Shown here: in pieces, positions 10,659 through 18,543 of the stretch
Numbering within the stretch: the stretch's first letter is position 1
Layout of the letters: the number at the start of each line of letters is the position of its first letter
Origin: Lachnospiraceae bacterium A2
GTDB taxonomy: Bacteria; Bacillota; Clostridia; Lachnospirales; Lachnospiraceae
Assembly: GCA_000403315.2 (NCBI GenBank)
Contig: KE159636.1
Span: 2,144,041-2,208,040 of the forward strand
Reading direction: 5' to 3'
Length of the DNA: 64,000 nt
Made by a program: the position numbers and the translations under genes
The notes under the pieces: model-generated
What the model was told of the DNA's origin: nothing
The model's input: only the letters and a program-made list of their open reading frames with translations
Databases searched by the model: none

Positions 10659-11345
10659 TTAAAGCGTTTTTAGTTGGTTCTGGTGCATATTAATGTAAAT
10701 GTCTTGGATTTCTTGTTTTGCTTTGACATCGCTGCTAAGAGATATGGCTTCGTCTAGCTTTCGGGATAAATCGAGATGGCCTTCTGCTATGATTTTGATG
10801 TTGCGGTTTGTTTCGTTCTCAAGTGTGACATTGATTTTGGATACTTCATTTTCAAGGGAAGAAACCCTGTTGTCCAGAGAAACTATCTTTTTGCCAAGCG
10901 AATGGACTTCTTTGTCCAGGGAATCCACTTTTACTTCAAGGGAAGAAACCCTGTTGCTTAGGGAATCCACTTTTTTGTCTAGGGAATCCATTTTCACTTC
11001 AAGGGAAGAAACCCTATTGTCCAGGGAATCCATTTTCACTTCAAGGGAAGAAACCCTGTTGCTTAGGGAATCCACTTTTTTGTCTAGGGAATCCATTTTC
11101 ACTTCAAGGGAAGAAACCCTATTGTCCAGGGAATCCATTTTCACTTCAAGGGAAGAAACCCTGTTGCTTAGGGAATCCACTTTTTTGTCTAGGGAATCCA
11201 TTTTCACTTCAAGGGAAGAAACCCTGTTGTCTAGGGAATCCATTTTCACTTCAAGGGAAGAAACCCTATTGTCCAGAGAAACCACATGTTTCTTTACCGT
11301 CTGCATGTCGTCGTATAATGCCTGCAGCAGTTGTGTGTTTGTCAT
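10659..11345 (-). CDS. Repeat-built coiled-coil protein of unknown function
   Basis: This 228-residue protein has no recognised family. The start is supported by AAAGGAGGT just upstream on the minus strand. Residues 1-27 and the last 75 or so are unique (for example NRNIKIIAEGHLDLSRKLDEA). Residues 28-132 are three near-identical 35-residue units made of heptads such as VSSLEVKMDSLDNR, which predict a long parallel coiled coil with Val/Leu at the core. It has no signal peptide or membrane segment, so it is probably cytoplasmic. It is convergent with the alpha-galactosidase gene and shares its terminator. A tail-fibre-like or scaffold role is possible but unsupported. Confidence 0.75.
   Translation of the reverse strand: MTNTQLLQALYDDMQTVKKHVVSLDNRVSSLEVKMDSLDNRVSSLEVKMDSLDKKVDSLSNRVSSLEVKMDSLDNRVSSLEVKMDSLDKKVDSLSNRVSSLEVKMDSLDNRVSSLEVKMDSLDKKVDSLSNRVSSLEVKVDSLDKEVHSLGKKIVSLDNRVSSLENEVSKINVTLENETNRNIKIIAEGHLDLSRKLDEAISLSSDVKAKQEIQDIYINMHQNQLKTL
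10950..11264 (-). repeat. Three tandem 105-bp units coding the coiled coil
   Basis: Each unit encodes a 14-residue plus a 21-residue heptad block. The three copies are almost identical in DNA, not only in protein, which points to recent duplication or unequal crossing-over. Copy number is likely to vary between strains. Confidence 0.85.
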
Positions 11346-13970: not shown

Positions 13971-14459
13971 ATGAGTTACCCTGAAAAATCAAGCGGGTTG
14001 TTTCAGGAGCCAGTTGCAGAAGAATTACTTAGAAGCGAATTAGCAAAGGAGCAGCAGAGGTTAGAAGAAGAAAGACGGGACTTCGAGCGGGAAAAGAAAG
14101 AATTTTATTTCCGGAAAAAAATGGAAGAAAAACGCCTTGCAGAGGAGAACCGCCTGTTCCAGATGAAGTGGAAAGTATTGGAAGGGGAACTTAGGAGCCT
14201 TGCAAAAGAAAAGCAGGATGTGGCAGTGGAAAAGGAACGCTATCACCAGAGGGACAGCCAGGGCAGCCATTTTGTATTTTCTGGGAACAATGTGGAGGCA
14301 GAAGTATTTTTCTCCGGCGTATGCGACGAGCTTGCATTGAAAAAGCGTTACAAGGAACTGATTAAAATTTACCATCCAGACAACCTTGCGGGGGATACCG
14401 TTACCTTACAGATGATAAATAAAACGTATGATTTCTTGAAAAAGCAATTTTCTGCATAA
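13971..14459 (+). CDS. Coiled-coil protein with C-terminal J-domain-like segment
   Basis: A 162-residue protein. Residues about 20-90 are a highly charged helix (QQRLEEERRDFEREKKEF, then RKKMEEKRLAEENRLFQ), probably a coiled coil. The last 45 residues resemble the core of a DnaJ J-domain, with LKKRYKELIKIYHPDN containing the HPD triad and INKTYDFLKKQF closing it. A J-domain would stimulate an Hsp70. The reversed order (J-domain at the C-terminus after a coiled coil) is not that of DnaJ. Its partner is unknown. It lies 92 bases upstream of the decarboxylase gene and may or may not share its transcript. Confidence 0.75.
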   Translation: MSYPEKSSGLFQEPVAEELLRSELAKEQQRLEEERRDFEREKKEFYFRKKMEEKRLAEENRLFQMKWKVLEGELRSLAKEKQDVAVEKERYHQRDSQGSHFVFSGNNVEAEVFFSGVCDELALKKRYKELIKIYHPDNLAGDTVTLQMINKTYDFLKKQFSA

Positions 14460-14551
14460 AGGGCAGGAAACGTATCTTGCGGGGCAGGAGGATAAGGGGG
14501 CAGGGTACTGCCGCAGGCGTCCCCTGCTTGGCAGGTTCAGGAGGGAAAGCA

Positions 14552-15787
14552 ATGGAACAGCAGGAATTGGAGGCGGTGCTGGCGCAGTACCAGACGCCGG
14601 CCTACGTATTTGACTTAGATGCGCTGGCAGCCCGGGCGAAGCGGATTTCGGAACGCTTGGGGCAAGCCGGGATTGGCCTGTGCTATGCTATGAAAGCAAA
14701 CCCATTTCTGATAGGGGGGCTTGCCCCTTTTGTGGAACGGTTTGAGGTGTGCTCGCCGGGGGAATTCCGCATTTGTGAGCGGGAAGGGCTCTCCATGGGG
14801 CGGCTGGTTATTTCCGGCGTCCATAAAGGGCTTGGGGATACCAGGCGGATGGTACAGGAATATCAGGGAGCAGGGATTTTTACCATAGAATCCATGCGGC
14901 AGAGGGATCTGCTTGCAGCATGCGCCAGCGAGGCTGGGGTGCCGGTAAAGGTTCTGGTGCGCATCAGCAGCGGCAACCAGTTTGGCGTAGACTACATGCT
15001 GGCAAAGGAAATATTCCAAAACCGCAGGGAATATCCCCAGCTTTTGCTGGAAGGCATCCAGTATTATTCCGGTACCCAGAAGAAGAACCTGTCTGTAATA
15101 GAAAAGGAATTGCAGGAATTGGACAGGTTCTGCCATGAGGTACAGGAGGAATTGGGTGTCCAAATCCCGGAAATCGAATATGGGCCCGGTTTTTTTGTGC
15201 CATATTTCCAGTCGGACGCTGAGGAGCATTTGGAGGAATTATTGGAAGGGTTCACAGCCTTGGCCCAGCGTATGGAATTTTCAGGGAAAATGACGCTGGA
15301 GCTGGGCAGGTTCCTGGCAGCGGAGTGCGGGAGCTTCCTGACCTCCATTGTGGACAGGAAAGAAAACGGCGGGCAGGTTTACGGGATTGTGGATGGCGGA
15401 ATCCACCACCTGAATTATTTCGGGCAGACCATGGCAATGAAATTGCCCTATATCCAGCATATCCCTATGGGGGACCGGGCAGGCATTGCAAAGGCGGGCA
15501 GCCAGGAGGATAACGAATATCTGCCGGAAGAAAAATGGAATATCTGCGGCTCCCTGTGCACGGCGGCGGATGTGATTGTCAAGCAGTTTCCCCTCACTGG
15601 GGCAAAGGCAGGGGACGTGCTGGTGTTTGGGCGGGCAGGCGCTTATTCCGTGATGGAAGGGATTAGCCTGTTCCTCAGCAGGGACTTGCCAAAGGTACTG
15701 TTTTACTCCAGGGAACATGGCCTGCGCCTGGTCCGGGATGTGCTGCCTACCGATACCATCAACAGTGTAAAAAAATCAGAGAAATAA
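14552..15787 (+). CDS. PLP-dependent decarboxylase of the DAP/ornithine decarboxylase (fold III) family
   Basis: A 411-residue enzyme with an alanine-racemase-type TIM barrel followed by a beta domain. The PLP lysine is Lys48 in YAMKANPF. A glycine-rich phosphate-binding segment (EYGPGFFVPYF) and the Cys-containing substrate loop ICGSLCTAADV are present. The family decarboxylates amino acids (diaminopimelate, ornithine, arginine). The butirosin enzyme BtrK acts on glutamate attached to an acyl carrier protein. A carrier protein gene follows after 22 bases, then an MBOAT gene, so a carrier-bound or surface-polymer-linked substrate is plausible here. It is not obviously lysA, as no lysine genes are nearby. 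AGGAGGG at 14539-14545 fixes the start. Confidence 0.85.
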   Translation: MEQQELEAVLAQYQTPAYVFDLDALAARAKRISERLGQAGIGLCYAMKANPFLIGGLAPFVERFEVCSPGEFRICEREGLSMGRLVISGVHKGLGDTRRMVQEYQGAGIFTIESMRQRDLLAACASEAGVPVKVLVRISSGNQFGVDYMLAKEIFQNRREYPQLLLEGIQYYSGTQKKNLSVIEKELQELDRFCHEVQEELGVQIPEIEYGPGFFVPYFQSDAEEHLEELLEGFTALAQRMEFSGKMTLELGRFLAAECGSFLTSIVDRKENGGQVYGIVDGGIHHLNYFGQTMAMKLPYIQHIPMGDRAGIAKAGSQEDNEYLPEEKWNICGSLCTAADVIVKQFPLTGAKAGDVLVFGRAGAYSVMEGISLFLSRDLPKVLFYSREHGLRLVRDVLPTDTINSVKKSEK

Positions 15788-15809
15788 GGATTCAGAAAGG
15801 ATGAGAGTT

Positions 15810-16037
15810 ATGGAAAAATTAATGGAAATTTTAGAGGACATTCAGCCAGATGCAGATTTTGATACCTGCGAAACATTGATTGACGACGGTGTGCTGGATT
15901 CATTTGCCATTTTGTCCATTGTCAGTGAATTACAGGATGAATTTGGGATTACGATTACCCCCGCCGACATTATCCCGGAGAATTTCAACTCTGCCAAGGC
16001 ATTGTGGGCAATGGTAGAACGGCTGCAGGAAGCGTAA
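15810..16037 (+). CDS. Acyl carrier protein, DltC-like
   Basis: A 75-residue carrier protein with the phosphopantetheine-attachment Ser31 in DDGVLDSFAIL. It is followed by the typical acidic helix II (IVSELQDEFGITITPADI) and a final helix. Size and the LDS motif resemble DltC, the D-alanyl carrier, more than fatty-acid ACP. It should hold an activated acyl or aminoacyl group as a thioester. ATG 15801 abuts AGAAAGG, so ATG 15810, nine bases downstream, is the better start. It lies between the PLP decarboxylase and the MBOAT gene with short gaps, forming an operon. Confidence 0.88.
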   Translation: MEKLMEILEDIQPDADFDTCETLIDDGVLDSFAILSIVSELQDEFGITITPADIIPENFNSAKALWAMVERLQEA

Positions 16038-16049
16038 GGCGGGATAGCT

Positions 16050-17588
16050 ATGTCTTTAGTTTCTATGGAATTTTTGCTGTTTGCTGCCGCAGCAGTGGCG
16101 GGGTATTATTGGATCCCCAAAAGATGCCAGTGGATGTGGCTCCTGCTGTTCAGCTATATTTACTATGCCAGCGGGGGAATCCGGGTCACCTGTTTCCTTT
16201 TATTTACCACCCTTACCTCTTATGCAGCAGGGATTTTGGTGGAGCAGGCAGCAGAAAAGATACCTGATAAAAAGAAAGCAAAACGCCGGGGCAAGCAGGT
16301 TTTGGCGTCGGCCTTGCTTCTGAATTTTGGCATATTAGGGGTGCTGAAATATACGAATTTCGCGCTCCATACAGTAAATGGGCTGTTTGGCACAGAGTTT
16401 GGTTCCTTACAGTTCCTGTTGCCACTTGGGATTTCCTTTTATACGTTCCAGTCCATGGGATATCTTCTGGATGTATATTGGGGCAGGGCGAAGGCGGAAC
16501 ATCATTTGTTCCGTTTTGCTTTGTTTGTGTCTTTTTTCCCGCAGATCCTGCAAGGGCCGATTGGCAGGTTCAGCGCTTTGGGGGAACAGCTTTACGCTTC
16601 CCATCCCTTTGACGGGAAACGGATAGAACGGGGATGCCTGCGCATCTTATGGGGCTATTTTAAGAAAATGGCAATTGCGGACAATGCGGTGATTTTTGTC
16701 GATGCAATCTTCGGGAACCCAGAGCTGTACGACGGGTTAGGGCTGATGGGGGTGCTGATGTACAGCATCCAGCTTTACTGTGATTTTTCCGGCGGCATGG
16801 ACGTGGTAATTGGCATTGGGGAGCTGTTTGGGATACATTTGGACGAGAATTTTAAGCGGCCGTATTTCGCCGTTTCCATTACGGATTTTTGGCACCGCTG
16901 GCATATCACCCTTGGGACCTGGATGAAGGACTATGTGTTCTACCCGGTGACGCTGTCCGGCTGGATGAAGCATTTTTCCAAATTTGCCAAGAAGGCATTT
17001 GGGAAACAGATGGGGCGGACGCTGCCGATCTGCCTTGCCAACCTGATCGTGTTCTTCGTGGTGGGCGTCTGGCACGGGGCCGCATGGAAATTCATTGTTT
17101 ATGGCCTTTACAATGGGCTGATTATTGCTTTCAGCGGGCTGATGGCCCCGGCCTACCGGAACTGGAAAAAAGCCCTCCATATTTCGGATAAGAGCAGGGC
17201 GTTCCATCTGTTCCAAATGGCGCGCACCTTTGTGCTGGTAAATATTAGCTGGTTTTTTGACCGGGCAGAGGATGTGCCGACGGCAGTCCTTATGATGAAA
17301 AATACCCTGCGCCGCCTGGACTTCAGGCAGGTTTTGGAGCCAGGGATTGAAATTGGCGAAGCAAGCGGGACAACTTTTACGGTGGTTGCCCTTGGGGTAA
17401 TACTGGGCGGATGCCTGCTCCTGTTTGCAGTCAGCGTGCTGCAGGAACAGGGGAAGGACCTGGCAGAAATTTTCACAAGGCAGCACTGGCTGGTAAAGGC
17501 TGCGGTCTATCTGTGCCTGATTTTAGCGCTGCCTGTGCTGGGGCAGCCTTCCGGGGAGTCAGGAGGGTTTATTTATGCGCAATTTTAA
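16050..17588 (+). CDS. MBOAT-family membrane acyltransferase, DltB/AlgI-like
   Basis: A 512-residue protein with ten or more membrane helices. The MBOAT core includes ITDFWHRWHITLGTWMKDY with conserved His282, and VGVWHGAAWKFIVYGLYNG with the catalytic-type His342. DltB and AlgI use this site to pass an acyl group from a carrier (or donor) across the membrane to a cell-surface polymer. A carrier protein gene directly upstream suggests a DltB-like donor. The reading frame overlaps the next gene by 14 bases, implying translational coupling. The acceptor polymer cannot be deduced from the sequence. Confidence 0.92.
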   Translation: MSLVSMEFLLFAAAAVAGYYWIPKRCQWMWLLLFSYIYYASGGIRVTCFLLFTTLTSYAAGILVEQAAEKIPDKKKAKRRGKQVLASALLLNFGILGVLKYTNFALHTVNGLFGTEFGSLQFLLPLGISFYTFQSMGYLLDVYWGRAKAEHHLFRFALFVSFFPQILQGPIGRFSALGEQLYASHPFDGKRIERGCLRILWGYFKKMAIADNAVIFVDAIFGNPELYDGLGLMGVLMYSIQLYCDFSGGMDVVIGIGELFGIHLDENFKRPYFAVSITDFWHRWHITLGTWMKDYVFYPVTLSGWMKHFSKFAKKAFGKQMGRTLPICLANLIVFFVVGVWHGAAWKFIVYGLYNGLIIAFSGLMAPAYRNWKKALHISDKSRAFHLFQMARTFVLVNISWFFDRAEDVPTAVLMMKNTLRRLDFRQVLEPGIEIGEASGTTFTVVALGVILGGCLLLFAVSVLQEQGKDLAEIFTRQHWLVKAAVYLCLILALPVLGQPSGESGGFIYAQF

Positions 17589-18543
17589 AAAGCTATTGCT
17601 GCCGGCCGTGGTGGCGCTTGTACTGGCAGCCGTAAATTTTTGCCTGAACTATGCGCTGATCCCATACAGCTACGTGCGGATTATGATGCACCAAATCGAA
17701 ACGCAGGAGTATGATACCCTGTTCCTTGGCACTTCCCACGGGCTGAACGGAATCAGCCCCAAGATAATAGAGGAAAAAACAGGCGGGCGGGTCATGAACC
17801 TGTGCTTAGGGGGCGAGTACCCAAAGGACGCCTATTACTTATTAAAACAAGCCTGTAAAAAAAGCAGCCCCAAAACGGTGGTCTACGAACTGGACCCGGG
17901 CTACTGGTGCACGCCGGAAGGGCAGCGTGGGGACTTTAACCGGGTTTTTTATGAAATGCCGTGGTCTTTGACAAAACTGGAGTATTTCTTTGCAAAGGAA
18001 TGGAAGCTGGATTTCCGGGCGGCATTGTTCCCGTGGTTTTACTATAGGAGCCAGTTCCGGCAGATGGAAGAAATTTTGGCAGTGAAGCGGGGGCAGGAGT
18101 ACCAAAACTTTGGGGCCGGCCCATTCCAGAACGAGGGGCAGGGCTATGCAGACGGGTTTATGCAAAACGCCTTAGCCACAGGCCCCAAACCGGAGGGGAA
18201 GCTGGAGCTGTGGGACGAACAGGAGAAAAATGAGGACTCCTTCCGGTATTTTGAGAAAATGCAGGCTTTCTGTGAAAAGCGGGGCATCCGGCTGATTGTT
18301 ATTACGACCCCGGTCCCCAGCGAAACTTTGGAAAAATATGCGGAAAAATTTGAGGAGTCCGACAGGTTTTTTACAGAGTACTTAAAGGGCCTTGGGCTGG
18401 AATACTGGAATTACAACCGCCCGGAAAGGAAAATCAAGGATTTTGATTACAGCCTGAATGTGTATACGGATTATGAAGGGCATATGTGGGCAGGGCAGGC
18501 AGAGCAGTTCAGCGCCCAGCTTGGGGAAGATATGATTCAGTGA
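17575..18543 (+). CDS. SGNH/DltD-like membrane-anchored protein
   Basis: A 322-residue protein with one N-terminal membrane helix (LLLPAVVALVLAAVNFCL) and the rest probably outside the cell. The segment DTLFLGTSHGLNGI places Ser54 like the block I serine of SGNH hydrolases. TDYEGHMW near the end supplies Asp299 and His303 for a possible triad. DltD and AlgJ/AlgX-type partners of MBOAT proteins have this design and complete transfer of the acyl group to the polymer. It overlaps the MBOAT gene by 14 bases. Overall similarity to DltD is modest, so the name is not assigned. Confidence 0.75.
   Translation: MRNFKKLLLPAVVALVLAAVNFCLNYALIPYSYVRIMMHQIETQEYDTLFLGTSHGLNGISPKIIEEKTGGRVMNLCLGGEYPKDAYYLLKQACKKSSPKTVVYELDPGYWCTPEGQRGDFNRVFYEMPWSLTKLEYFFAKEWKLDFRAALFPWFYYRSQFRQMEEILAVKRGQEYQNFGAGPFQNEGQGYADGFMQNALATGPKPEGKLELWDEQEKNEDSFRYFEKMQAFCEKRGIRLIVITTPVPSETLEKYAEKFEESDRFFTEYLKGLGLEYWNYNRPERKIKDFDYSLNVYTDYEGHMWAGQAEQFSAQLGEDMIQ

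Follow-up and report, generated by a model that had tools for sequence, protein, structure and literature searches.

Four adjacent genes of Lachnospiraceae bacterium A2 raise the question of how a carrier protein can feed a surface acyltransferase when no enzyme that charges the carrier is encoded beside it. The genes lie in a 64,000-nucleotide stretch of contig KE159636.1 (positions 2,144,041 to 2,208,040 of the forward strand), which we call the window and whose own numbering is used below. They encode a fold III decarboxylase dependent on pyridoxal phosphate (PLP), here DEC; an acyl carrier protein (ACP); a membrane-bound O-acyltransferase (MBOAT); and a protein predicted to have the SGNH fold. 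We found that the normal system has five genes, with a DltA-like adenylation gene (A) usually first and DEC usually between A and ACP, and that the absence of A here is a secondary loss. To the reading that the window holds DEC-ACP-MBOAT-SGNH as part of a Dlt-like relay for surface acylation, in which an amino acid would be decarboxylated on the carrier and A would act in trans, we give about an even chance.

14552 to 15787, plus strand: DEC, a fold III PLP decarboxylase of 411 amino acids, BtrK/SbnH-like.
15801 to 16037, plus strand: ACP, a DltC-like carrier protein of 78 amino acids, with the phosphopantetheine serine in DDGVLDS.
16050 to 17588, plus strand: MBOAT, a DltB-like acyltransferase of 512 amino acids, with a C-terminal FIYAQF that includes Tyr509.
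17575 to 18543, plus strand: SGNH protein of 322 amino acids, plausibly DltD/PatB-like, with an N-terminal helix, G52-T-S54, D299 and H303.

All four genes are intact and tightly packed on the plus strand, and the open reading frames (ORFs) agree on this point with an earlier note on the DNA. The start of DEC is an internal ATG (14552); the mechanical ORF opens upstream at a TTG (14477). The gap between DEC and ACP measures 13 nucleotides, or the 22 of the earlier note if ACP begins at the second ATG, 15810. ACP and MBOAT are 12 nucleotides apart, and MBOAT and SGNH overlap by 14. Family searches matched DEC to Orn_Arg_deC_N and Orn_DAP_Arg_deC, ACP to PP-binding and MBOAT to PF03062; Pfam and NCBIfam scans of the fourth protein gave no match.

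DEC was found in 14 of 29 genomes of the genus (E 1e-20), 13 of them at 63% identity or more. Of 299 genomes sampled from the family, 59 have it (E 1e-30), as do 14 of 391 from the class (E 1e-60). Among the best 80 of 522 confirmed, the named relatives with a DEC locus include Dorea, Blautia, Lacrimispora, Agathobaculum, Merdibacter, Erysipelothrix and Collinsella. When the 152 DEC loci collected were merged by decarboxylase identity, 139 distinct loci were left, of which 114 had full flanks. In those 114, counted with profile hidden Markov models that were themselves trained on loci of this set, A lay within 2.5 kb of DEC in 109 (no more than 160 nucleotides upstream in 96) and ACP within 2.5 kb in 107; A, ACP, MBOAT and SGNH all stood beside DEC in 87. 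Because the four accompany DEC so often, the gene order is due to more than chance. The earlier note had suggested that conservation of the order be checked and that an adenylation gene be sought in other genomes: the order is conserved, and A is joined to the cassette in most genomes. The note's proposal that the genes work without an activating enzyme of their own is therefore right for this genome and wrong for the system, and DEC does not take the place of DltA, as it had supposed, but usually follows A. The five A-less loci of the 114 are the window, G322 (with its near-copy G323 merged in), G301, L092 and L093, the last two with a different gene order. In a further five loci (L199, L208, L213, L214, L219), A, DEC and ACP occur without a nearby MBOAT or SGNH gene, mostly followed by genes for proteins of about 360-400 amino acids; these are possibly a natural-product or lipid pathway sharing the loading module.

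The history of A within the genus can be read at the boundary upstream of DEC.

14460 to 14551, plus strand: site of the A gene (about 505 amino acids) in 8 of 13 orthologous genus loci; without a convincing trace of it in the window.
13971 to 14459, plus strand: upstream neighbour of 162 amino acids, matching DnaJ below threshold; each of the other 12 orthologous loci fetched has it too.

A sits between the DnaJ-like gene, which is probably outside the acylation system, and DEC in G299, G300, G304, G306, G309, G312, G313 and G325. It is missing from the other five orthologous loci, namely the window (G000), G301, G322, G323 and G308. The gene downstream of the window cassette (PrmA by eye) is likewise present in all 11 orthologous loci with enough sequence. 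When the DNA before DEC in the window, L110 and L111 was searched for traces of A, tblastn gave chance-level matches alone (E 0.7-1), and the idea of a remnant was rejected. In the genus tree, from which G308 was left out as too short, the window lineage and the clade of G301, G322 and G323 are separate, on an unresolved backbone. The remaining cassette genes are intact in the A-less genomes as far as the contigs reach, and they are under purifying selection despite the loss of A. The ratio of nonsynonymous to synonymous substitution rates (dN/dS) in the A-less pair G322-G301 is 0.154 for DEC, 0.116 for MBOAT, 0.125 for SGNH and 0.015 for ACP, and in the pair G304-G299, with A in cis, 0.120, 0.099, 0.068 and 0.011, respectively; among the pairs compared, saturation affected several of those for SGNH, and G322-G323 differ at too few sites. 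A 767-amino-acid gene follows SGNH in three A-less genomes (L110:3318-5621, L111:3463-5766, L114:3215-5518) and is absent from the window. The sequence of its product resembles a YhgE/Pip-type membrane protein; as a loader in G301, G322 and G323 it was rejected for its membrane-protein-like sequence.

By sequence, DEC is nearest to enzymes that act on conjugated amino acids. Its best matches in the Protein Data Bank (PDB) were BtrK (93 bits), SbnH (66), lysine/ornithine decarboxylase (64) and LysA entries (at most 60). A model of the protein (pLDDT 89.9) placed BtrK first in Foldseek (E 2.2e-29), SbnH next and LysA structures from E 4.8e-27, so that the lead of BtrK over LysA is clear by sequence and slight by fold. 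BtrK acts on glutamyl-BtrI and SbnH on an N-citryl amino acid (PMC7857480, in excerpt). Alignment assigns the PLP lysine of DEC to Lys48 and the catalytic cysteine to Cys336, followed by Thr337. In L/ODC, ADC and DAPDC, the Asp at the position after the Cys touches the side-chain amine of the substrate (same excerpt). This residue is Thr or Ser in 135 of 136 distinct DECs, with one gap (3 of the 139 distinct loci yielded no DEC), and the alignment thus shows no acidic residue in DEC to read a distal amine. The best NCBIfam match, TIGR03099, reached 155.2 bits of the 478.45 needed. Decarboxylation by VinO, another PLP enzyme, occurs solely after thioester formation (PMC11284099, in excerpt). 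Since the alpha-carboxyl must be free for alpha-decarboxylation, the amino acid would be loaded through its side chain if these precedents hold.

The pocket of A suggests what that amino acid might be. Its positions were mapped by motif, not by structure, onto GrsA numbering. Of the 139 distinct DEC loci, 14 gave no full-length A; of the 125 whose A could be parsed, 119 share D235, V/I236, K239, S301 and C-N at 330/331. DltA has Cys where the cassette A has Ser, and that Cys selects D-Ala (PMC11253843, in excerpt). Lys239 belongs to the Glu code of surfactin synthetase, in which K239E shifts the preference to Gln (PMC11355689, in excerpt), and on this ground we infer that A activates an acidic amino acid. 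The A proteins of the three relatives tested scored 304-315 bits against 560 for TIGR01734, and LgrA chains lead the PDB matches of one cassette A. In five DEC cassettes of the order A-ACP-DEC (L073, L077, L082, L089, L206), the pocket of A reads I-A-R, with the amine-binding Asp235 lost and Arg in place of Lys239; this A perhaps takes another substrate.

The other three proteins are predicted to carry out the transfer. ACP and MBOAT missed the DltC and DltB cut-offs (36.1 bits against 68 for PRK05087; 160.5 against 375 for TIGR04091). Crude regular expressions matched the Ser pattern of ACP in 103 of 121 cases and the WHG pattern of MBOAT in 101 of 108. The FIYAQF terminus of the window MBOAT fits the FxYxxF acyl-shuttle motif. 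A Tyr at -4 and a final Phe or Tyr occur in all 108 distinct loci, and the strict FxYxxF in 47 of them, the window included. As excerpts of PMC12148441 describe, the Dlt MBOAT hands D-Ala from the carrier to the Tyr of an FxYxxF motif in DltX, other MBOAT/SGNH systems carry the motif fused to the MBOAT, and the Tyr is the acyl shuttle in both Dlt and Pat. The fourth protein, modelled from 30 relatives (pLDDT 93.1), has the SGNH fold in that model. Its best Foldseek matches were DltD structures (E 3.1e-05); VIA-align gave thioesterase I a Z score of 14.3, PatB 12.8-13.1 and DltD 12.6-12.8, the last over the longest alignments listed. Because VIA-align puts thioesterase I above DltD, the label "DltD-like" rests on the Foldseek order and the gene context; the protein is plausibly of the DltD/PatB kind. 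Its triad is intact, with Asp299 and His303 invariant and Ser54 at least 90% conserved among the 30 sequences. Because the MBOAT bears a C-terminal shuttle Tyr, as in MBOAT/SGNH systems, the predicted relay from carrier to Tyr to Ser to polymer is well supported by motif.

The mechanism that we favour would run as follows. A would activate an acidic amino acid and load it onto holo-ACP via the side-chain carboxyl. With the substrate still on the carrier, DEC would strip off its free alpha-carboxyl and leave a thioester resembling beta-alanyl or gamma-aminobutyryl (GABA) groups; BtrK acts in this way on glutamyl-BtrI, and VinO on 3-methylaspartyl-VinL. The MBOAT would accept this acyl group on Tyr509. 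Ser54 of the SGNH protein would then take it and esterify an extracellular polymer, perhaps teichoic acid, thereby giving the polymer a cationic amine. In the window genome, where the cis A was lost, the single DltA-like enzyme of a distant locus on contig C3 would stand in. The earlier note had proposed much the same Dlt-like relay, with BtrK-fashion decarboxylation on the carrier and a loader encoded elsewhere. That outline stands as far as sequence can carry it; the amino acid, the acceptor and the charging by the C3 enzyme are still predictions.

A whole-genome search for AMP-binding proteins (PF00501) gave two matches, both far from the window: one is acyl-CoA-synthetase-like, and the other, on C3, is the sole DltA-like A of the genome. 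The C3 A passed the amino-acid adenylation cut-off (338 bits against 317) and missed that of the DltA model PRK04813 (320 against 476); its pocket residues are those of the relatives' cis A. In its locus (L035:9944-12581), A is followed by a formyltransferase and then by a second DltC-like carrier, ACP2. With a threshold of 70% identity, an A of this type is present in four of the five A-less genomes and three of the 16 without an orthologous DEC, and absent from all eight that have A in cis (Fisher p 0.007, not corrected for shared descent). G322 and G301 have the order A-formyltransferase-ACP2-MBOAT, and G176, G303 and G311, which have no orthologous DEC, the order A-ACP2-MBOAT. Two CDP-glycerol glycerophosphotransferase-like genes, an ABC transporter ATPase, a Stealth protein and an ACP3-MBOAT-SGNH set stand 10-19 kb upstream of the C3 A, which therefore adjoins a teichoic-acid-type locus. 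We regard it as most likely that this enzyme supplies the window carrier in trans. We rejected the idea that the cis A had moved to C3: in a quick tree (SH-aLRT support only; 64 of 165 usable rows, with L092 and L093 left out), the C3 A groups with plain cassettes and all ten rows of the formyltransferase type in a clade of 26 rows, apart from the eight cis A of the genus. Near the C3 A locus, L035:16904-19815 holds two ORFs, presumably integrase-like and replication-initiator-like to judge from their sequences, a possible mobile-element boundary.

Several observations weigh against the proposed mechanism. The Fisher value overstates independence, because the A-less genomes represent few lineages and G301, G322 and G323 form one clade. 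G323, which is 98% complete, keeps the A-less cassette and has no C3 A match at E 1e-60; its five AMP-binding matches fall in a 2988-amino-acid and a 716-amino-acid frame. The window ACP shares 49% identity with ACP2, and the ACPs of four relatives with A in cis share 44-49% with it; this comparison gives no sign that the window carrier has moved towards ACP2. For DEC, dN/dS is a little higher in four A-less pairs (0.12-0.17) than in five cis-A pairs (0.09-0.12). The pocket of A is identical in cassettes without DEC (without deduplication, it is present in 131 of 139 DEC contexts, 10 of 10 formyltransferase, 5 of 12 MBOAT without a tailoring enzyme and 4 of 6 other contexts), and Lys239 also occurs in plain cassettes with a different pocket. 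Nor is the pocket VinN-like. VinN takes 3-methylaspartate as a beta-amino acid and has Lys330-Arg331 on a shortened beta13-beta14 loop (PMC11253843, in excerpt); A has Cys-Asn at 330/331 and, by eye from motif strings, an ordinary loop length. VinN-type activation was considered, and neither the Lys-Arg pair nor the short loop is present.

Another possibility is that DEC decarboxylates a free amino acid to beta-alanine, GABA or a similar compound, which A then activates and loads. Many fold III decarboxylases do use free amino acids, and IdnL3 forms its starter amino acid ahead of loading (PMC11284099, in excerpt). However, DEC is nearest to enzymes of conjugated substrates, the pocket of A is the same beside DEC or a formyltransferase, and Lys239 would be unexpected for a decarboxylated product. 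We consider this order of events unlikely. We are more doubtful still that the cassette of the A-less genomes has ceased to be a relay, its A lost and the rest decaying or otherwise employed. The missing C3 A match in G323, the absence of drift towards ACP2 and the slight rise in DEC dN/dS would fit such a fate, but the four genes are intact, and the dN/dS values of G322-G301 (0.02-0.15) are near those of G304-G299 (0.01-0.12).

It is improbable, in our view, that the system is fed by aspartate and resembles D-alanylation, with A loading aspartate by the alpha-carboxyl and DEC then taking off the beta-carboxyl to yield alanyl-ACP. Asp235 and Lys239 suit an acidic amino acid activated in the ordinary way at its alpha-carboxyl, and the carboxyl that a PLP decarboxylase of such pathways removes can lie beta to the carbon bearing the amine, as IdnL3 shows (PMC11284099, in excerpt). 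Against this, direct loading of alanine would suffice. Both on-carrier precedents, BtrK and VinO, also take off the alpha-carboxyl. Finally, it is very improbable that DEC belongs to basic metabolism, as a LysA, ornithine or lysine decarboxylase, and is here by accident: the protein matches general PLP decarboxylase families and LysA folds score close to BtrK, but it reaches 140.2 bits against the lysA equivalog cut-off of 297.9, a more LysA-like gene with Glu after the Cys lies elsewhere in the genome (275 bits, just under that cut-off), and the PDB matches, the residue after the Cys and the linkage to A, ACP, MBOAT and SGNH led us to reject the assignment.

Returning to the carrier-bound mechanism, we tentatively suggest a wider view, which is possible though rather less than an even bet. 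Clostridia and relatives may have a modular platform for surface aminoacylation, in which an A specific for an acidic amino acid charges DltC-like carriers and the tailoring position is interchangeable. A decarboxylase, a formyltransferase or nothing at that position would give the surface polymer a cationic beta-alanyl/GABA ester, a formylated ester or a plain amino acid, respectively. In the window genome, the C3 A would be a hub for three carriers: the window ACP, ACP2 (next to the formyltransferase) and ACP3, with its own MBOAT-SGNH pair. A formyltransferase replaces the decarboxylase in a sister cassette type (L035, L123, L125, L126, L127, L135, L136). The ACP3-MBOAT-SGNH set (L233:3735-6770, on C3) stands between ABC transporter and Stealth genes without an adenylation gene, and ACP3 and ACP2 share 84% identity. 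Six MBOAT genes (seven PF03062 pieces) were counted in the genome, which also encodes a single sulfatase-family protein; this protein, 799 amino acids long and without an NCBIfam match at E 1e-20, might be an LtaS. Elsewhere in the window, positions 10659-11345 of the minus strand hold a 228-amino-acid ORF of heptad-like repeats (SLDNRVSSLEVKMDSLDKKV) that overlaps a long repetitive ORF on the plus strand.

D-alanylation is the textbook route to positive charge on the teichoic acids of Gram-positive bacteria. If our reading is correct, this cassette, with its decarboxylase in about a fifth of the family genomes sampled, adds other amines by editing an amino acid on the carrier, and so widens the chemistry of surface charge. 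It would also offer testable targets in gut bacteria for charge, resistance to host peptides and immune recognition. Searches of open-licence PMC papers, judged by titles and the starts of abstracts, brought up no report of an adenylation-decarboxylase-carrier-MBOAT-SGNH cassette; within that scope, the parts match known kinds and their combination is new.

The closest of these kinds is Dlt, which likewise unites an adenylation enzyme, a carrier, an MBOAT and an SGNH transferase in one cassette and has an acyl-shuttle Tyr motif. The present cassette differs in its extra decarboxylase, usually between A and the carrier; in a pocket with Ser for the key Cys of DltA and Lys at 239; in bearing the shuttle motif on the MBOAT, whereas Dlt has a separate DltX; and in A, ACP and MBOAT scores that, where tested, fall far under the Dlt cut-offs. 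PatA/PatB of peptidoglycan O-acetylation share an MBOAT with a C-terminal shuttle motif and an SGNH transferase, but draw on acetyl-CoA, with no carrier protein or adenylation enzyme. The BtrI/BtrJ/BtrK group of butirosin biosynthesis also pairs a fold III decarboxylase with a carrier, and BtrK is the nearest solved structure to DEC, whose role in the cassette is predicted. The Btr product goes to an antibiotic rather than to a surface polymer, as proposed here, and the butirosin loader is an ATP-grasp ligase, in contrast to the DltA-like one of the cassette. In the macrolactam systems VinN/VinL/VinO and FlvN, an adenylation enzyme and a standalone ACP are joined by a PLP decarboxylase that works after thioester formation (PMC11284099, in excerpt). 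Vin, however, makes a polyketide starter unit without MBOAT or SGNH proteins, and the Lys330-Arg331 pair and shortened loop of VinN are absent here. The exosortase A-associated proteins of TIGR03098 and TIGR03099 likewise pair an AMP-forming ligase with a PLP decarboxylase, and DEC falls well short of the score that TIGR03099 requires. For the sister A-formyltransferase-ACP cassettes, a model is the formyltransferase-adenylation-carrier module of LgrA, a single nonribosomal peptide synthetase polypeptide, which formylates its carrier-bound amino acid, there not an acidic one.

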